Assembly (NCBI RefSeq): GCF_013911755.1
Contig: NZ_JACESP010000022.1
Span: 1 to 64,000, forward strand
DNA: 64,000 nt
Reading direction: 5' to 3'
Source of the DNA: Sphingosinicella sp.
Lineage (GTDB): Bacteria > Pseudomonadota > Alphaproteobacteria > Sphingomonadales > Sphingomonadaceae
Part shown: piece by piece, positions 44,672 to 51,641 of the stretch
Layout: each line of letters opens with the position of its first letter
Numbering within the stretch: the first letter of the stretch is position 1
The notes under the pieces: generated by a model
The model's database searches: none
What the model was told of the DNA's origin: nothing
The model's input: only the letters and a program-made list of their open reading frames with translations
Translations under genes and position numbers: made by a program

Positions 44672-45114
44672 TCACGGTCGAGCGTGCGGTTCGTGTCGCG
44701 GCCCCGGCGGAGCGGGTCTGGAAGCTGTTCGCGACCGAAGACGGCCAGCGGCGCGCCGAAGAAGGCTTCGTCACCTCGATCGAATTCGAAGGCAAGGGGC
44801 TCGGCATGGTGCGCACCATGCGTACCGAAGGGCATCTGGGGGATGGTTACGTAAAGGAACGCCTCGATCATTATGACGAGGCGGAAATGGAGATGATGTT
44901 CCGCATCATCGATACCGGCGATGTGGTGCCGTTCGCGGACTATTGCGGCTTTGCGAAGATCATCCCGGCTGGGGCCTCTGCCTGCGTGCTGCTGATGCGC
45001 TCGACGTTCGTTCCTGTCGACATGCCGGAGGCCGAGGCGCGGGCAGTGTCGGAAGAAAACTACCGGCTGTTCATCGCGAATGTGCAGGCGGCCGTGGCGG
45101 CCGGAGACGTCTGA
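44668..45114 (+). CDS. SRPBCC (polyketide cyclase-like) protein
   Basis: This 148-residue protein is a START/Bet v1-like fold: ITVERAVRVAAPAERVWKLF opens the first strand and helix, and a long final helix (EENYRLFIANVQAAVAA) closes it. It has no clear catalytic residues. Family members bind hydrophobic ligands or act as cyclases. It parallels the C-terminal half of the RidA fusion encoded across the divergent region. It overlaps both neighbours and is translationally coupled to them. Confidence 0.8.
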   Translation: MITVERAVRVAAPAERVWKLFATEDGQRRAEEGFVTSIEFEGKGLGMVRTMRTEGHLGDGYVKERLDHYDEAEMEMMFRIIDTGDVVPFADYCGFAKIIPAGASACVLLMRSTFVPVDMPEAEARAVSEENYRLFIANVQAAVAAGDV

Positions 45115-45893
45115 TGCGCGTCGTTCCGATCCCGCTGCGGAACGCCTTCGATCATGTGAACTACCTGCTCGTCTGCGATGCGGCGAAGGTCGCGATCGCT
45201 GTCGATCCCTACGATGTCGAGCGCGTGGCCGGAGAGGCTAACGCACAGGGCGTCACGATCACCAGCGTCGTCAACACGCACGAACACTGGGATCATGCAG
45301 GCAAGAACGCCGAGATGAAGGCGCGAACGGGCGCGGCGGTGATGGCGCCCCGCGCGGCGGCGGGCACACTCGAGGGGCTGGACCGCCTGCTGGAGGACGG
45401 CGATATGATTTCGGTCGGCGCGGACAGCGTGACGGTCCGCGCCGTACCCGGACACACGATGGCGAGCATAGCGATCTTCGGCGAGGAGGAAGGCGGCATA
45501 CCCTTCGTCATCTCCGGCGATACGCTGTTCGGCGCGGGCGTCGGCAACTGCGGCTATGGCGGCCACGCGCCGACGCTTCAGGAAACGATCAGCGGCGTGT
45601 TCGCATCGCTTGCCGACGAGACACGCGTTTATCCCGGGCACGACTACCTTAAGCGCAACCTCGCTTTCACGCTGACCATCGAGCCGGGCAACGCGGCAGC
45701 GTGCGCGCTGGCATCCGCGCTCGAATCGACGGACGGCACAGCGCCGCATTTCACCACGATCGGCGAAGAGCGCGCGATCAATCTGTTTCTGCGGACCGGC
45801 AGCCACGAAGTCCGCACGAACCTCGAGCTACCGGCTCCTGCGAACGATTCGGACGTTTTCCTTGCGATCAGGAAGCGGCGCGATCATTGGTAG
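45114..45893 (+). CDS. Metallo-beta-lactamase-fold hydrolase (glyoxalase II-like)
   Basis: This 259-residue protein carries THEHWDHAG (His56, His58, Asp60, His61), GHTMAS, SGDTLFGAG and YPGHDY, the zinc-site pattern of hydroxyacylglutathione hydrolases. It probably hydrolyses a thioester or similar ester. The ATG at 45114 overlaps the SRPBCC stop (TGATG). It ends the Lrp-SRPBCC-MBL unit and is convergent with nrsF. Confidence 0.88.
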   Translation: MRVVPIPLRNAFDHVNYLLVCDAAKVAIAVDPYDVERVAGEANAQGVTITSVVNTHEHWDHAGKNAEMKARTGAAVMAPRAAAGTLEGLDRLLEDGDMISVGADSVTVRAVPGHTMASIAIFGEEEGGIPFVISGDTLFGAGVGNCGYGGHAPTLQETISGVFASLADETRVYPGHDYLKRNLAFTLTIEPGNAAACALASALESTDGTAPHFTTIGEERAINLFLRTGSHEVRTNLELPAPANDSDVFLAIRKRRDHW

Positions 45894-45924
45894 ATGGGCT
45901 CACGCAGCGCGCTATGGCGAAATG

Positions 45925-46575
45925 TCACCACCGCACGAGCCGGGGTACCAACAGCCTGCCGAGCAGCGCACTGATGAGAACCGGCGCACTGTGCCACAGC
46001 CCGACGTGGTAGATCGTGTCCGTCGAACAATGAAATGCGAACGCGAAGATCCCGATGCACCCCGACGCGACGCCGACGAGCAGCCCGGCGCGTTCGGGGG
46101 AGGTCGGCGCACCCCGGCGTAACCAAAACACCAGTACCGCGGCGGTGAGCAGGCCGAGGGTAACCCCGGCGAAGAGACAATCCATCTCGTGGACGGACAT
46201 GATTATACCGGGAAGCGCTTCGGTGCCGGACGCGAGTATAATGATTGCCGACAATGGCAGCAAACAGGCCGCCGCAGCCACCCACCGCCATCCGAAGTGC
46301 CGGCTCCCGACCTGCGGATTTCCCATCGCGATCACAGTTGCGGCGCAGGCGACACCCAGAATCAGGAACAGGCCGTTGGCGATCAGAAACAATGTGTCGA
46401 AGCGGCCCGCGGAAATGTCGCTCCGGAAGCCGAAAACGATCGCCACGATGGCCAGCGTGGCGGCTGCCGCGGCAGCGGTGAGTCCCAGCCCGTAGCGACG
46501 GCGCAGAACGCGCGCCGGACGCAGGTCATCCACCAGCGAAGCGATGAGCGTGTCGGTATCCGGATCCATGATCAT
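45925..46575 (-). CDS. nrsF: NrsF-like anti-sigma factor (DUF1109)
   Basis: This 216-residue inner-membrane protein has six hydrophobic segments after an N-terminal cytoplasmic stretch (DTDTLIASLVDDLRPARVLRRR), as in DUF1109/NrsF. Two cysteines, in HEMDCLFAG and AFHCSTD, fall at residues 131 and 181 if the second ATG (46569) is used. These correspond to the pair described as important for metal sensing in Caulobacter NrsF. It overlaps sigF by 4 bp and should hold SigF inactive until metal stress. Confidence 0.88.
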   Translation of the reverse strand: MIMDPDTDTLIASLVDDLRPARVLRRRYGLGLTAAAAAATLAIVAIVFGFRSDISAGRFDTLFLIANGLFLILGVACAATVIAMGNPQVGSRHFGWRWVAAAACLLPLSAIIILASGTEALPGIIMSVHEMDCLFAGVTLGLLTAAVLVFWLRRGAPTSPERAGLLVGVASGCIGIFAFAFHCSTDTIYHVGLWHSAPVLISALLGRLLVPRLVRW

Positions 46576-47099
46576 TCCGCTTCCTCGATCAGGGCGCTGA
46601 GTTTCCTGAGCCCCCTGTGTACATTGACCTTGACGAGCGCCTCGCTCTGGCCCGACCGCGAAGCAGCCTCGGCCACGGAAAGGCCTTCGATCCTCACCAG
46701 CTCTATCACCTGCGCCTGCGAGGGCGGCAGATGGGCCAGCAAACCGTCAAGGCTGAGCCGTGCGGCCACGCTTTCCTGGCCGCCGGCGACGGAGACCTCC
46801 TCGTCGAGCCCGACTTCGTCCGCGCGGTAGACCTTCCGAAGATGATCGACCCAGCGATAACGTGCGATCGCCGCGAGCCAGGGCAGGAACGGACGCGACG
46901 GATCGTAACTTGCCAGCTTGCCGTGCAGCGACAGCAAGGTTTCCTGCACGAGATCGTCCAGATGACACGGTGCGATCCGGCGCGCGAAATAGCGCCCGAG
47001 CCAGGCCGAGCAGGCCTTCAGAAGCGCGGCATAGGCCGGGCGGTCGCCCCGCTGAGCCAGCGCCATCAGGCGCGACAGGCTGGCATCGTCCGCTTTCAC
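46572..47099 (-). CDS. sigF: ECF sigma factor, SigF-like
   Basis: This 175-residue RNA polymerase sigma factor has region 2 (LLKACSAWLGRYFARRI to DDLVQETLLSLHGKLASYDP and FLPWLAAIARYRWVDHLRK) and region 4 (LPPSQAQVIELVRIEGLSVA and EALVKVNVHRGLRKL). Pairing with a DUF1109 gene marks it as the SigF group. It is coupled by 4-bp overlaps to the DoxX gene before it and nrsF after it. Two promoters of SigF form lie in the bufA1-bufA2 divergent region, so it is probably autoregulated. Confidence 0.92.
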   Translation of the reverse strand: MKADDASLSRLMALAQRGDRPAYAALLKACSAWLGRYFARRIAPCHLDDLVQETLLSLHGKLASYDPSRPFLPWLAAIARYRWVDHLRKVYRADEVGLDEEVSVAGGQESVAARLSLDGLLAHLPPSQAQVIELVRIEGLSVAEAASRSGQSEALVKVNVHRGLRKLSALIEEAE

Positions 47100-47551
47100 C
47101 TAGCGAATCGGCTGAAAAGCGCGTCGAGCGCCAGCGCACCGCCGCCTCTTGCGATGAGAACGAGCGCCAGCGCGGCCCACAGGGAATGCACCGGCCACCA
47201 CGCTTCTGGGTAGACGAACAGCTGGATCACCATCGTCATGCCGAGCAGCCCGAGCGCGGACAGGCGGACGCCGAGGCCGATCACGAGCAGCACCGGCAGA
47301 ACATGCTCGGCTGCCGCCGCGGCGACGGCCGCGAACTCGGGTGGCAGCGGGACGCGCGTATATTCCTCACGGAACAGATAATAGGTCGCATCGCTGATCG
47401 AAAACCAGCTGCCCTCTTCGATTTTCGCGCGCCCCGATCGCCAGAAGACACCGGCGAGCGCGAGCCGGGCGAGCAGAAGCGCGGACGCCTCCACCGCGCG
47501 GCTGGAGAACAACGCCGTGATCCGCTGCCAGCCCCTCTGAAGCGCGAGCAT
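47096..47551 (-). CDS. DoxX-family membrane protein of the bufferin operon
   Basis: This 151-residue protein has about four transmembrane segments and the DoxX pattern LLLARLALAGVFWRSGRAKI to HVLPVLLVIGLGVRLSAL. DoxX proteins accompany bufferin operons (BufD or GigD) and are proposed to serve redox or transport roles in the membrane. It is 4 bp after bufA1 and overlaps sigF by 4 bp, which places it firmly in the operon. Confidence 0.88.
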   Translation of the reverse strand: MLALQRGWQRITALFSSRAVEASALLLARLALAGVFWRSGRAKIEEGSWFSISDATYYLFREEYTRVPLPPEFAAVAAAAAEHVLPVLLVIGLGVRLSALGLLGMTMVIQLFVYPEAWWPVHSLWAALALVLIARGGGALALDALFSRFAR

Positions 47552-47555
47552 GGGT

Positions 47556-47843
47556 CTATGCCTGCGGCTTCAGCGAGCCGCTGCCCTTAGGCGTCTTGAT
47601 CTTCAGGCAGGTTCCCGCCTTCACCAGCTTCCACGCATTGCCCTGGTAGTCGGTGGTCGATGTGCCCGCGCAGCTGGTTCCGGCCCCGGCGGCGCAGTCG
47701 TTCTGGCCCGCCTTCGCGACGCCGTAGCATTTTTCCATCTCGGGCTTTTTCGTTTCCGCCTGTGCGCTGCTCGCCAAACCGGCGGTCACCGCGGCTGCGA
47801 GTAGAGTCGTGAACAAGGGCGTCAAGGTTTCGCGTGTCATCAT
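47556..47843 (-). CDS. BufA1-type bufferin precursor (DUF2282)
   Basis: This 95-residue exported precursor has a signal peptide ending SAQA at about residue 29. The mature part has [19 protein letters not shown] and AGTCLKI, giving four cysteines (39, 50, 58, 79). It matches the DUF2282/BufA1 copper-binding RiPP precursors, whose cysteines are modified by an MNIO enzyme. GGGAGA precedes tandem ATGs at 47843 and 47840. A SigF-form promoter lies 56 bp upstream. It is the first gene of a leftward operon with doxX, sigF and nrsF; its modifying enzyme is encoded on the opposite side. Confidence 0.9.
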
Positions 47844-47898
47844 CTCGTCTCCCATTGGAATTGAAAAGCCGCCATCGACACGGCGGTCTGGCTGGAAG

Positions 47899-47924
47899 TT
47901 CGGGCGAAAGGCGCCGCGCGTTAC
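47899..47924 (-). promoter_or_regulatory. SigF-type promoter for bufA1-doxX-sigF-nrsF
   Basis: On the minus strand GTAACG (47924-47919) is followed by exactly 16 bases and CGAA (47902-47899). This is the GTAACC-N16-CGAA form reported for Caulobacter SigF with one mismatch. The start codon is 56 bp downstream. Confidence 0.7.
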
Positions 47925-47958
47925 ACGGGTCGAAAAAATAAAATTCGTCGCTGCCGCT

Positions 47959-47984
47959 GTAACCGTCCGGCGCACACACGCGAA
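47959..47984 (+). promoter_or_regulatory. SigF-type promoter for bufA2-bufB-bufC
   Basis: GTAACC (47959-47964), 16 bases and CGAA (47981-47984) match the SigF form exactly. The bufA2 ATG is 45 bp downstream. It is back to back with the minus-strand promoter, 34 bp apart. Confidence 0.78.
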
Positions 47985-48028
47985 TGAACGATAGCCAATC
48001 CGGCGCACGTCATTGGGAGATTTGTCTG

Positions 48029-48313
48029 ATGTCCATCGCACTGAAGGGAGCCGGCATCGCATCGGCTGCCGCCCTGTTCGCTCTTTCAACGCTGGCCTCT
48101 GCCGCGCCCGCGCCCGCCGGTAGCAGCGGTGCCGCCATCTCGGGTGCCGACATGGTACACTGCTACGGCGTCAACAGCTGCAAGGGCAGCTCCGACTGCA
48201 AGACCACGCAGCACGAATGCAAGGGTCACAACAGCTGCAAGGGTCACGGCTTCAAGGCCATGAAGGCCGACCAATGCCTGAGCAAGGGCGGTACGATCGG
48301 CGATATCGGCTGA
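48029..48313 (+). CDS. BufA2-type bufferin precursor
   Basis: This 94-residue exported precursor has a signal peptide ending ASA at about residue 25. It has a short linker and a core [33 protein letters not shown] with six cysteines (45, 51, 57, 64, 70, 83). The repeating C-K-G spacing is that of BufA2 metallophore precursors. The ATG at 48029 with GGGAG upstream is preferred to an in-frame ATG at 47984, which lies inside the promoter. It leads the operon with the MNIO enzyme BufB and its partner BufC. Confidence 0.92.
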
Positions 48314-48321
48314 TGCCTCCC

Positions 48322-48358
48322 GGGCGATCCGGTCTCCCCCCCCCCGACCGGATCGCCC
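48322..48358 (+). terminator. Strong hairpin between bufA2 and bufB
   Basis: GGGCGATCCGGTC pairs perfectly over 13 bp with GACCGGATCGCCC around an 11-base loop of T then C10. No T-run follows, so it is probably a partial terminator or an mRNA 3'-end stabiliser that keeps precursor transcript above enzyme transcript. Confidence 0.7.
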
Positions 48359-48383
48359 ACCCCTTCGTTCCAGGATACCCATC

Positions 48384-49217
48384 GTGACGGAAATACAGCC
48401 CTTCACCGGCTTCGGCCTTGGCCTGCGCAAGAACCACTACGCTGACTATCTGGCCGGGACCGTTCCTGTCGATTTCGTCGAGATCATTTCAGAGAACTTC
48501 ATGGTGGACGGGGGCCGCCCGCTGTTCACGCTCGATGCCGTTCGCGAGCGGTACCCGGTGGTGATGCACGGCGTATCGATGTCGATCGGATCGGCGGCGG
48601 GTCTTGATCGCGAATATCTTGCACGCCTCAAGCGGCTGGCAGATCGCGTGAAACCGCTATGGGTCTCCGATCATTTGTGCTGGACCGGCGTGGATGGCCA
48701 CAACACACACGACCTGCTGCCGCTGCCCTACAGCGAAGAGGCGCTGGAAGTTGTATGCAGGAACATCATGCAGGCGCAGGAGGCGCTCGGGCGGCCGCTG
48801 CTGTTCGAAAACCCGTCCAGCTATGTCGCCTTCGATACCGACATGACCGAGTCGCAGTTTCTGGCCGCGATGTGCGAACGCACCGGCTGCTTCCTGCTGC
48901 TCGACGTCAACAACGTCTACGTCAGCAGCGTTAATCACGGCTTCGATCCGATCGCATATCTTGAAGGCCTTCCCGCCTCGCGGGTGCGACAGATTCATTT
49001 GGCGGGGCACAGCCGGGGCCAGGATGTGCTGATTGACACGCACGATGCGCCAGTCTGTGCGGATGTATGGGCGCTCTACCAACTCGCCTGCGCGCGTTTC
49101 ACCTCGGTTGCCGCGATGATCGAGCGCGACGACGCGATTCCGCCGATCGATGTGCTGCTGAGCGAACTCGATATCGCACGCAGTCTTTCGGGGCATGACG
49201 CACGGTACGCCGCATGA
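48384..49217 (+). CDS. bufB: BufB, MNIO-class RiPP-modifying enzyme (DUF692)
   Basis: This 277-residue TIM-barrel protein fits the multinuclear non-haem iron oxidative enzymes. It has FVEIISENFM, VVMHGVSMSIGS, WVSDHLCWTG, LLFENPSSYV, LLLDVNNVYVS and QIHLAGHSRG, which supply the His, Glu, Asp and Asn metal ligands. BufB converts precursor cysteines to copper-binding heterocycles. The start is a GTG at 48384 preceded by AGGA; no ATG is available at family length. Its stop overlaps bufC by 4 bp. Confidence 0.92.
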   Translation: MTEIQPFTGFGLGLRKNHYADYLAGTVPVDFVEIISENFMVDGGRPLFTLDAVRERYPVVMHGVSMSIGSAAGLDREYLARLKRLADRVKPLWVSDHLCWTGVDGHNTHDLLPLPYSEEALEVVCRNIMQAQEALGRPLLFENPSSYVAFDTDMTESQFLAAMCERTGCFLLLDVNNVYVSSVNHGFDPIAYLEGLPASRVRQIHLAGHSRGQDVLIDTHDAPVCADVWALYQLACARFTSVAAMIERDDAIPPIDVLLSELDIARSLSGHDARYAA

Positions 49218-49987
49218 CTTTGGTCGATCTCCAGCGCCGGTTCTACGCCGCCGTGACGAGCCCCGGTGAGACGGCGTTCGAAGATTGGGAGCCGGCGCTG
49301 CGCCCCGGCCTCGCTGTCTACCGGAATGCCTATCGGGCTCGGCTGATCGAATGTCTGCGTTCCACGTTCGAGAAAACGTGGACATGGATCGGCGACGAGA
49401 GTTTCGATGCCGCAGCCGCGCATCACCTCATTGCGAAGCCGCCGCGAAGCTGGACGCTCGACGATGCGGGCGCCGGCTTCGATGAAACGCTGGCGCAGCT
49501 CTTTCCAGACGACTCGGAGGTCGCGGAACTGGCCTGGCTCGAATGGCAGATGCAGCAAGCCTTCACTGCCGCCGACGAACCGGTCCTCGATGCCACCGGC
49601 TTCGCCGCGCTCTCGAAAGGCTTTACTGAAGAAGCCTGGGCCTCGCTTCGCCTTTCATTCGTGACCGGAATGCGCTTAAGGCGGATACAGGCCGATTGCG
49701 GTGCGATCTGGACCGCAATTGCCAACGATGAAAACATGTCGGCGGATGTTCTGTTAGATGAGAAGCGGAGCCTCCTTGTGTGGCGGCAGGGGCTCGATCC
49801 ACGGTTTCGGATGCTGAGCTCTGAAGAGGCTGTCTGCCTTGACCTGTTGAGGAACGGCGGCACCTTCGGCGATATGTGCGAGGCGCTCATCAAGCGCCTT
49901 GGCGTCTCCGGCATCGAAGAGGCCGGACGCACGCTCGGCATCTGGATTGCGCAGGGTTTGGTTCGCCACGCTGAGGCTGGAGTTTAG
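49214..49987 (+). CDS. bufC: BufC, DUF2063 partner protein
   Basis: This 257-residue protein has the N-terminal DUF2063 signature LVDLQRRFYAAVTSP, then GLAVYRNAYRARLIECLRSTF, and a C-terminal winged-helix-like part (LSSEEAVCLDLLRNGGTFGD). In MNIO systems this partner binds the precursor and BufB and is needed for modification. It is translationally coupled to bufB, and is the last gene of the operon. The spacing of 127 bp to the next gene suggests a separate unit starts there. Confidence 0.9.
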   Translation: MTLVDLQRRFYAAVTSPGETAFEDWEPALRPGLAVYRNAYRARLIECLRSTFEKTWTWIGDESFDAAAAHHLIAKPPRSWTLDDAGAGFDETLAQLFPDDSEVAELAWLEWQMQQAFTAADEPVLDATGFAALSKGFTEEAWASLRLSFVTGMRLRRIQADCGAIWTAIANDENMSADVLLDEKRSLLVWRQGLDPRFRMLSSEEAVCLDLLRNGGTFGDMCEALIKRLGVSGIEEAGRTLGIWIAQGLVRHAEAGV

Positions 49988-50114
49988 CGTCAGGCCGTTA
50001 CGGCGGAACCATAACCATCCGTTATGGAAGATGGCGGATTTTATAGAGGTCATCATACGTCCCCGCTCTAGAGTGGTTTTTACGAATGTCTGAAGCGGGG
50101 GAAATGGGGCGGCT

Positions 50115-51641
50115 GTGAGCGCAGGCATAGGCATTCACCGGCTGCGGGCCTTGGGTGTGATCCTTTCGATGGTCGTGGCCGGGTCCCCAATTGCGCCATC
50201 GGCGACGGAAAACCCTGCCTACGATGTCGTTATCCGCGGCGGACGGGTCATCGATCCCGAGAGCGGTCTCGATGCGGTTCGGAACGTGGCGATTGCCGAT
50301 GGCCGCATTGCCGCTGTTTCGACGGATAGGCTTTCGGGCCGCATCATGATCGATGCGGGCGGGCTTGTCGTGGCACCCGGCTTCATCGATGTGCATTCGC
50401 ACGGCATGACCATTCCGAACGGCTGGCTGCAAGCCTTCGACGGCGTGACGACCGCGCTCGAACTTGAAACCGGCGCATGGCCGGTCGCCGACGTCTATCG
50501 GGCGGCTTCCCAGCAGGGGCGGCCGATCAATTACGGCTATTCCGTCGCATGGTCGGGCATCCGGCAGGAGGTGATGGGAGACCGTGCCCAGGATCTTGCG
50601 ACGGATGCGGAGATCGAAACAATTCTGGCGCGGGTATCGGATGGGCTCGATGCCGGAGGCCTCGGCGTCGGAACGCCGGTCGGCTATTCCACCCGCACAA
50701 ACCGGACCGAATACTGGGACGTGGCGGCGCTCGCCGCGAAACGCGGCGTGCCGGTATTCACCCATGTCCGCACGAAGAACGGGCGTGATCCGGACAGTGC
50801 GCTCGAAGCCTTCGGAGAAGTGATCGCTACCGCGGCGACGACGGGCGCGCACATGCATCTCTGCCATATCAACAGCTCCGGCCTGCGCGACATTCCGCGC
50901 CTTACTGGCATGATCGCCCAGGCGCGCGCCTACGGCATTCCCGTGACGAGCGAGGCCTATCCCTGGGGCGCGGGCTCGACTTCGATCGGCGCTCCGTTTC
51001 TTGCGCCGGAAAACCTGCCCCTGCTCGACATCGGGCCGGAGAACATCGAAGTCATCGCTAACGGTGAGCGGCCCGCGACGGCCCAGCGTCTTGCGGAGCT
51101 GCGCAAGGCAAAGCCGGATGAACGGGTGATCGTGCATTATCTGAACGAGACGATCGAAGCGGAACGCCAGTTGATCGAGCAGGCGCTCGTTCTTGAAGAC
51201 GGGATCATCGCAAGTGACGCGGTTCGTTACTCCATGAAGGATCGGATCGTGACCGAAGCGGTGTGGCCGCTGCCGGCTGCCGTTGCCGGTCATCCCCGTT
51301 CGGCAGCGACCTTTACGAAGGTGCTCGGCGAATACGTCCGCGAGCGGGAACTCCTGCGCCTTGCCGATGCGATCCGGCGTTCGACGCTGCTTCCCGCGCA
51401 GCTTCTGGAGCCTGCTGCGCCCGGCATGAAGCGCAAGGGGCGGATCGGTGTGGGCATGGACGCCGACATCGTCGTCTTCGATCCCGCGACGGTGGGTGCC
51501 GCCGCGACCTATGAAAAACCGGCTGAACCCGCGAAGGGAATGCACCATGTTCTTGTGGGGGGCACCTTCGTTATCCGGGAGGGCAAGCTGATCGCGTCCG
51601 CCCGCCCCGGCCGGGCCATTCGCGGAGGAATAGCCGAGTGA
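50115..51641 (+). CDS. N-acyl-D-amino-acid deacylase-like amidohydrolase (third member)
   Basis: This 508-residue secreted amidohydrolase has a signal peptide (to about residue 30), VVAPGFIDVHSHG, GVTTALELETGA, TGAHMHLCHINSS and late motif DGIIASDAV. The Glu of LELE stands where the classic enzyme has the metal-bridging Cys, as in D-glutamate-deacylase-like relatives. It is shorter and clearly more distant from the pair at 15.5 and 23 kb. It starts at a GTG with a purine-rich upstream and its stop overlaps the next gene by 4 bp, so both enzymes likely act together in the periplasm. Confidence 0.83.
   Translation: MSAGIGIHRLRALGVILSMVVAGSPIAPSATENPAYDVVIRGGRVIDPESGLDAVRNVAIADGRIAAVSTDRLSGRIMIDAGGLVVAPGFIDVHSHGMTIPNGWLQAFDGVTTALELETGAWPVADVYRAASQQGRPINYGYSVAWSGIRQEVMGDRAQDLATDAEIETILARVSDGLDAGGLGVGTPVGYSTRTNRTEYWDVAALAAKRGVPVFTHVRTKNGRDPDSALEAFGEVIATAATTGAHMHLCHINSSGLRDIPRLTGMIAQARAYGIPVTSEAYPWGAGSTSIGAPFLAPENLPLLDIGPENIEVIANGERPATAQRLAELRKAKPDERVIVHYLNETIEAERQLIEQALVLEDGIIASDAVRYSMKDRIVTEAVWPLPAAVAGHPRSAATFTKVLGEYVRERELLRLADAIRRSTLLPAQLLEPAAPGMKRKGRIGVGMDADIVVFDPATVGAAATYEKPAEPAKGMHHVLVGGTFVIREGKLIASARPGRAIRGGIAE

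Follow-up and report, generated by a model that had tools for sequence, protein, structure and literature searches.

How MNIO enzymes choose their substrates is an open question, and a locus of Sphingosinicella sp. (contig NZ_JACESP010000022.1, positions 1 to 64,000; the window denotes this whole stretch of 64,000 nucleotides) poses it in a simple form. Two bufferin precursor genes, bufA1 (product Buf1) and bufA2 (product Buf2), lie there on opposite strands beside one gene pair, bufB and bufC, coding for an MNIO enzyme and its DUF2063 partner protein (together BufBC), and we asked whether a single BufBC may act on both precursors. The answer that we favour, at a probability of roughly two in three, is that this is a SigF-controlled hybrid bufferin locus in which one Buf2-type BufBC modifies both precursors and the enzyme pair that once belonged to Buf1 has been lost. 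An earlier interpretation made from the letters alone (the sequence-only reading) had stated that one pair must modify both precursors; the comparative evidence favours a shared enzyme, and "must" is better replaced by "probably does".

Gene content of the locus

The island consists of seven genes, nrsF-sigF-doxX-bufA1 on the minus strand and bufA2-bufB-bufC on the plus strand, six of which are supported by Pfam matches. Its features are as follows.

45925..46575, minus strand: nrsF, membrane anti-sigma factor (PF06532, E 3.7e-42)
46572..47099, minus strand: sigF, extracytoplasmic function sigma factor (Sigma70_r4_2, 2.9e-13; Sigma70_r2, 1.8e-11)
47096..47551, minus strand: doxX, membrane protein of bufferin operons (PF07681, 1.9e-17)
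47556..47843, minus strand: bufA1 (Buf1, DUF2282), 4 Cys, TPKG-type C-terminus, signal peptide by eye (PF10048, 1.6e-25)
47899..47924, minus strand: SigF-type promoter motif GTAACG-N16-CGAA, facing bufA1-doxX-sigF-nrsF
47959..47984, plus strand: SigF-type promoter motif GTAACC-N16-CGAA, identical to the published consensus, facing bufA2-bufB-bufC
48029..48313, plus strand: bufA2 (Buf2), 6 Cys, four central Cys-Lys sites, signal peptide by eye
48322..48358, plus strand: intergenic hairpin, 13-bp perfect stem GGGCGATCCGGTC/GACCGGATCGCCC, 11-nt C-rich loop
48384..49217, plus strand: bufB, MNIO of the Buf2-type group (PF05114, 1.4e-107), ERDD being the catalytic Asp followed by the specificity Asp
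49214..49987, plus strand: bufC, DUF2063 partner protein (PF09836, 2.3e-19)

All seven genes of the two-precursor bufferin island described in the sequence-only reading were located at their positions and on their strands, its own sigma/anti-sigma pair is present with SigF-type motifs on both arms, and its Cys counts of 4 for BufA1 and 6 for BufA2 are correct. The statement that nearly all gene pairs overlap or are only a few bp apart applies to four of the six junctions, namely the 4-bp overlaps at nrsF/sigF, sigF/doxX and bufB/bufC and the doxX/bufA1 spacing of +4 bp, but not for the 70 bp between bufA2 and bufB or the 185-bp divergent gap between bufA1 and bufA2. The start of bufA1 is likely the ATGATG at 47843/47840 behind GGGAGACGAG, rather than the upstream TTG of the mechanical open reading frame. 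Buf1 is a DUF2282 precursor with four Cys and a signal peptide judged by eye, which places it in the BufA1 type, and the DUF2063 gene adjoins the MNIO gene, as is required of a bufferin biosynthetic gene cluster (BGC). No Pfam match was obtained for bufA2 at E 0.1; an alignment of 26 rows, in which six Cys are invariant, assigns BufA2 to a conserved six-Cys family.

One enzyme pair and two precursors

Profile searches of the host genome (3.63 Mb in 48 contigs, 99.94% complete) gave one match each for PF05114 (MNIO), PF09836 (DUF2063) and PF10048 (DUF2282), all at the island. A second bufBC pair, the case named in the sequence-only reading as the one that would tell against it, was not found in this genome with the PF05114 and PF09836 profiles.

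Among 298 related genomes sampled from the family, MNIO was present in 112 and DUF2282 in 103; both occurred in 101 genomes, DUF2282 only in 2, MNIO only in 11 and neither in 184. DUF2282 genomes are thereby nested among the MNIO carriers, although a Fisher value for this nesting cannot be taken as a fair probability, as the genomes share ancestry. Buf2 was detected by search in 67 of the 298, or in 66 after removal of one weak cross-hit (the Buf2 matches of G022 and the second match of G114 were judged cross-hits to Buf1), and none of the 66 lacked MNIO. A single MNIO together with both precursors was found in 42 genomes, three of which carry the MNIO in two pieces that were counted as one (G018 at contig ends, G210 and G258 through a frame break). 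The search for the same divergent arrangement advised in the sequence-only reading returned 38 of these 42, with Buf2 adjacent upstream of bufB and Buf1 divergent; 35 are at least 95% complete, 37 of the 38 carry exactly one DUF2282 gene, and G210 and G258 are among them. In the loci of the latter two (L167 and L169) bufB is broken into two overlapping frames, by either a sequencing error or a real frameshift, inside otherwise complete window-type loci. Genomes G051 and G128 gave weak DUF2282 matches (4e-12 and 1e-9) and no MNIO match, and are candidates for unmodified bufferin-like proteins.

Gene neighbourhoods in the family were analysed in 132 stretches fetched around PF05114 places, at least G022:C133, G018:C26 and G167:C13 being left out. 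A further set, called named loci throughout, comprises the best 80 of 578 loci and is hence biased to close enzymes; it shares members with the family sample (11 or more of the 87 BufB rows are identical), and its counts give no independent support. The nearest named relatives by BufB belong to Sphingosinicella, a metagenome-assembled genome (92%) and S. microcystinivorans (87%).

Enzyme class of BufB

The unrooted FastTree phylogeny of BufB (126 of 138 rows, those with 220 residues or more and a domain score of 200 or more) revealed a group of 70 (support 94) containing the window enzyme and 64 of 64 Buf2-adjoining enzymes, and also the enzymes of four genomes of a genus designated g42, one enzyme without a neighbour and L075, a long branch linked to Buf1. 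The other group, of 48 (support 84), contained 47 Buf1-adjoining enzymes and one without a neighbour, while the Buf1-linked L086 and L087 fell outside both. In L075 (G192) tandem Buf1 genes stand directly before the long-branch bufB. The BufB-BufC pairs of L160, L080, L069 and L082, with neither Buf1 nor Buf2 in the stretch, formed their own starred group.

Enzymes of the Cys-Lys (Buf2) class are described as having an Asp after the catalytic Asp, a position that is not conserved in DUF2282 enzymes (PMC13097082). The catalytic column held Asp in every row compared, and the window BufB reads ERDD, with Asp at the site of FonB-Phe250 as mapped by motif and alignment. Family enzymes accompanied by Buf2 and a divergent Buf1 carry this specificity Asp in 47 of 49 cases, those accompanied by Buf2 only in 14 of 15, and Buf1-side enzymes of double loci, in which both sides carry a bufBC pair, in one of three (L132 and L133 were omitted from the count). 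The corresponding figures for named loci were 37/38 and 16/16, against 2/7 for Buf1-linked enzymes; where Buf1 and Buf2 share a strand Asp was present in 17 of 21, and Ala in three, all of them Massilia, where three of the four tandem loci have Ala at this site.

By tree and by specificity residue the window BufB is classed as a Buf2-type enzyme, so that it looks tuned to Buf2, with Buf1 as a guest. The specificity site is a tendency, not a rule, and is not decisive: Asp is not exclusive to the Buf2-type group, and changing the site in FonB mostly left activity (PMC13097082).

Relationship of the two precursors

Comparison of the Buf1 and Buf2 profiles with hhalign gave a probability of 89.5 (E 2e-6), Cys1 to Cys4 of Buf1 pairing with Cys1, 3, 4 and 6 of Buf2, which thus has two extra Cys. 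The sequence-only reading had spoken of two substrate classes; two precursors with different Cys patterns are indeed present, but by their profiles they are alignable homologues and not unrelated classes. In Buf1 the central Cys are reported to be modified and the outer two to form a disulphide, and models of the two families to be related (PMC12452194); by analogy the four central Cys of Buf2 would be open to modification, and both products of the window are putative copper-binding peptides with Cys-derived thiooxazole groups.

Exactly four Cys were found in 51 of 53 divergent Buf1, the other two being cut by a contig end or running over Ns. In the window Buf1, Ala follows the central Cys. 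A Lys after Cys2, considered as a Buf1 adaptation to a Cys-Lys enzyme, occurred in 15 of 48 divergent Buf1 and in 1 of 44 other Buf1; it was not used as evidence, the related loci not being independent and Ala standing at this place in the window and in 4 of 4 g42 Buf1.

Relatives that lack Buf2

Genomes G041, G121, G180 and G292 of genus g42 carry one MNIO, of the Buf2 group, and a divergent Buf1, and no Buf2 was found either upstream of bufB or genome-wide at E 1e-6. The forward SigF motif nevertheless still precedes bufB in all four loci. A named locus from an uncultured Erythrobacter (L277) is nearly identical to that of G292 and in the same Buf2-less state, and both L277 and L068, a locus of the g42 type, retain a hairpin upstream of bufB like that of the window. 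These loci are the best evidence that a Buf2-type BufBC may serve Buf1. A change of the specificity Asp after Buf2 loss was also looked for; no clear shift emerged (Asp in two and Glu in two of the g42 enzymes, Asp in L277). In L264 (Sphingomonas sp. PAMC 26605) the SigF motif and hairpin stand directly before bufB, as if bufA2 had been excised.

SigF-type promoters and NrsF

The SigF consensus of Caulobacter is GTAACC-N16-CGAA (PMC3511200, Figure 2 legend). The pattern GTAACN-N16-CGAA matched exactly twice in the window, both times inside the divergent gap, 0.14 matches being expected from shuffles. Among 36 like loci, in which Buf1 stands opposite Buf2-BufB with no sigF between (L079 and L083, each with a second bufBC, are included), the forward motif was found in 31, the reverse motif in 34 and both in 29, where their spacing is constant; both motifs were also present in 9 of 15 loci that have sigF-nrsF between. 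Motif counts in named loci were 17/19 and 17/21. The pair in the gap and its conservation in like loci indicate that both arms very probably form one SigF regulon, with feedback on sigF.

Cys133 and Cys183 of the window NrsF have the same spacing as Cys131 and Cys181 of the Caulobacter protein, and among 86 NrsF rows, the window included, one of the two Cys is present in all and the other in 85. Replacement of these Cys in Caulobacter NrsF raises SigF-dependent expression (PMC3511200), and six transmembrane segments have been published for that homologue. The SigF paper reports on chromium and cadmium, and the word copper is absent from its main text (PMC3511200); copper protection by the window locus would be carried over by analogy from published bufferins.

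Hairpin between bufA2 and bufB

Of 66 family loci, 54 show a stem 10 bp long or longer at the bufA2-bufB junction, compared with 11 of 330 dinucleotide shuffles (59 of 75 compared with 14 of 375 for named loci). In 44 of the 66, selected on this ground, the 5' arm contains CCGG and the stem is 9 bp long or longer; their flanking pair types vary widely, as expected of a kept structure, while the pairing itself is imposed by the way stems were picked. Long stems were found in 5 of 50 Buf1-BufB gaps and in 3 of 250 of their shuffles, these gaps being shorter (median 46 nt). A standard terminator was rejected, since no T-run follows the stem, and Rfam gave no match at E up to 1 across 45500-50200. 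The hairpin may act in mRNA stability or in setting the ratio of precursor to enzyme.

Distribution of the gene order

The order of 138 BufB hits was surveyed over the 132 family stretches and the window. The order of the window, <NrsF <SigF <DoxX <Buf1 Buf2> BufB> BufC>, was the commonest, with 27 of 138 hits, the window included. It was followed by Buf1> BufB> BufC> DoxX> SigF> NrsF> (19/138), Buf1> BufB> BufC> DoxX> (15/138) and <DoxX <Buf1 SigF> NrsF> Buf2> BufB> BufC> (14/138). Fourteen of the 80 named loci share the order of the window, from Sphingosinicella, Novosphingobium, Sphingobium, Sphingomonas, Qipengyuania, Pontixanthobacter and one unclassified alphaproteobacterium; the order recurs in Parerythrobacter, where no bufC was detected. 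The sequence-only reading had called the arrangement unusually compact, which as a statement of rarity is wrong: the layout is a common design in its family. Four named Massilia loci carry tandem Buf1 and Buf2 before one BufBC, and 14 named loci of Pseudomonas, Cupriavidus, Dyella and Luteibacter are ordered Buf1> DoxX> Buf2> BufB> BufC>. Like the homology of the two precursors, these loci count in favour of a shared enzyme.

Possible origin of the locus

The left arm of the window corresponds gene for gene to the operon Buf1>BufB>BufC>DoxX>SigF>NrsF without bufBC. L079, L083 and Caulobacter L206 carry both operons in head-to-head orientation, each complete with bufBC, and for L079 and L083 the tree assigned each enzyme to the group of the precursor on its own side, Buf1-type or Buf2-type. 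The window locus may have arisen when an operon bufA1-bufB-bufC-doxX-sigF-nrsF (Buf1) was placed head to head with an operon bufA2-bufB-bufC (Buf2), followed by loss of the bufBC of Buf1. The TPKG C-terminus was found in 47 of 48 divergent Buf1, in 8 of 8 of one Buf1-type enzyme subclade and in 4 of 44 other Buf1-type operons (two short Buf1, L120 and L139, were omitted from the Buf1 comparison). These patterns are more simply read as loss of the bufBC that belonged to Buf1, though unrooted trees do not prove it; the Buf1 tree, with 4 starred branches of 101, is poorly resolved and unfit to date the loss.

The G200 contig C67 (L104, L149) holds a dense cluster of three MNIO genes with Buf1 and Buf2 head to head; the Buf1 side carries a Buf1-type bufBC, a Buf2-group bufBC lies some 8 kb beyond, and a fourth MNIO is on another contig.

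Alternative explanations

Buf1 might not be a substrate at all, but an unmodified four-Cys periplasmic thiol protein co-regulated by SigF, with BufBC modifying Buf2 only. Several observations of this survey lean that way and weigh against a shared enzyme. The chief of them is that Buf1 may be a poor substrate of a Cys-Lys-type BufB, because that enzyme has the Cys-Lys-type Asp and Ala follows the central Cys of the window Buf1; only 1 of 46 Buf1-linked family enzymes has this Asp. Buf1 further sits with doxX in the other transcription unit, and stand-alone precursors may be unmodified (PMC12452194). Buf2-like bufBC persists with no precursor in the stretch in L264, L269 and L149, so that persistence of bufBC is no proof of a local substrate and the argument from g42 is weakened; six genomes have MNIO but neither precursor. 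Each Buf2-less g42 genome also has a second DUF2282 gene elsewhere, these genomes possibly hold an unrecognised precursor, and a fifth g42 genome, G223, carries an ordinary Buf1 operon instead (L102). The supports of the two BufB groups (94 and 84 with FastTree) are moderate, and no SigF motif was found upstream of the 18 tandem named loci. Against an unmodified Buf1 stand the g42 genomes without Buf2, which keep BufBC and the promoter motif and in which no precursor but Buf1 is known, the occurrence of DUF2282 without MNIO in just 2 of 103 genomes, and the conservation of the four Cys in all 51 complete divergent Buf1. On balance we regard an unmodified Buf1 as unlikely and prefer modification of both precursors by the shared BufBC.

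The origin of the locus allows a different history, in which there never were two full operons: Buf1 with doxX, sigF and nrsF would have been recruited beside a Buf2 operon, and the double loci would reflect later gains of Buf1-type bufBC. This history concerns origin alone and is compatible with a shared enzyme. Double loci are few (three family loci with a Buf1-side BufB opposite Buf2, and Caulobacter L206), and neither the unrooted BufB tree, which cannot tell gain from loss, nor the Buf1 tree speaks against recruitment; yet the left arm reproduces, minus bufBC, an operon order seen in 19 of 138 hits, and window-type Buf1 share the TPKG C-terminus with one Buf1-type enzyme subclade and not with most Buf1-type operons. 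Recruitment appears to us less probable than loss. Far less credible is that the GTAAC-N16-CGAA boxes arose by chance or belong to another sigma factor. The motif alone is not specific, GTAACS-N16-CGAA having 8 matches in the whole genome compared with 13 for the reversed pattern, and a wider SigF regulon in the host genome was rejected, as the six matches beyond the locus overlap longer open frames; two matches nevertheless fall in a single 185-bp gap, their spacing is constant across like loci, and the reversed-pattern control gave no match in 56 kb of family loci.

Proposed mechanism

From the literature on relatives, metal stress would inactivate the membrane anti-sigma factor NrsF and set SigF free, which would fire two back-to-back promoters in the bufA1-bufA2 gap. 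The left arm would yield Buf1, DoxX and additional SigF and NrsF as feedback, and the right arm Buf2 together with BufB and BufC, of which no other pair was found in the genome, the hairpin probably keeping precursor mRNA above enzyme mRNA. By analogy with published bufferins, BufBC would act on Cys residues of Buf1 and Buf2 alike ahead of their export, so that one enzyme pair would supply the periplasm with two metal-buffering peptides. A wider proposal, which we put forward tentatively and at somewhat less than an even chance, is that the Buf2-type pair took over Buf1 across sphingomonads with the hairpin setting the ratio, and that one Erythrobacter-like genus lost the original substrate and left the enzyme on the guest alone.

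Comparison with known systems

The SigF regulon of Caulobacter crescentus (CC3254-3257, CC2907-2905 and sigF-nrsF; PMC3511200) has the same gene families, the SigF consensus and a two-Cys NrsF. It differs in that its two operons lie apart and each includes a DUF692/DUF2063 pair, whereas the window has one pair and two precursors in one locus. Both Caulobacter precursors are labelled DUF2282 (PMC3511200); we read CC2907 as the C. vibrioides Buf2 mentioned in PMC12452194. The bufferin BGCs of Antoine et al. 2025 (PMC12452194) likewise contain precursor, MNIO, DUF2063, DoxX, sigma factor and NrsF; tandem precursor genes are noted there, and some MNIO are suggested to have more than one substrate. 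Unlike in that account, Buf2-BufBC units are here associated with sigma/anti-sigma control as well, sigF-nrsF adjoining them in the window and in many sphingomonad loci. The divergent mixed layout, the promoter pair and the hairpin were not found in the accessible text of PMC12452194, and no description of the divergent layout was found in searches of open-access papers, although an earlier one may exist. What is new here is the motif pair, the Buf2-type class of BufB, the commonness of the order, the Buf2-less g42 loci and the conserved hairpin; the multi-substrate idea for MNIO was already in print.

The captophorin Cys-Lys group BufA2B2C2 (PMC13097082) shares with the window the Asp beside the catalytic Asp and Cys-Lys sites in BufA2; the window differs in that a DUF2282 precursor without an enzyme of its own is linked to a Cys-Lys-type enzyme. 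Loci of this kind are natural experiments: here one enzyme is paired with two precursors, some relatives have two enzymes, and others lack one of the precursors. With the sequences given, the published several-substrate suggestion becomes a concrete test, and the interest of the locus lies in this testable take-over of a substrate, not in rarity.

The Pseudomonas "Pep4" BGC, with a DUF2282 peptide, DoxX, a hydrolase, a short peptide, DUF692, DUF2063 and a hydrolase (PMC8719888), resembles the window in combining two short peptides with one MNIO/DUF2063 pair, and more closely the Pseudomonas Buf1>DoxX>Buf2>BufB>BufC loci found here. Pep4 is tandem while the window is divergent, and shared modification is not discussed for Pep4 in the accessible part of that paper. 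Beside the island, positions 45114-45893 code for a HAGH-like hydrolase of the metallo-beta-lactamase fold, convergent to nrsF; hydrolases also occur in the Pep4 cluster, a resemblance that is perhaps coincidence.

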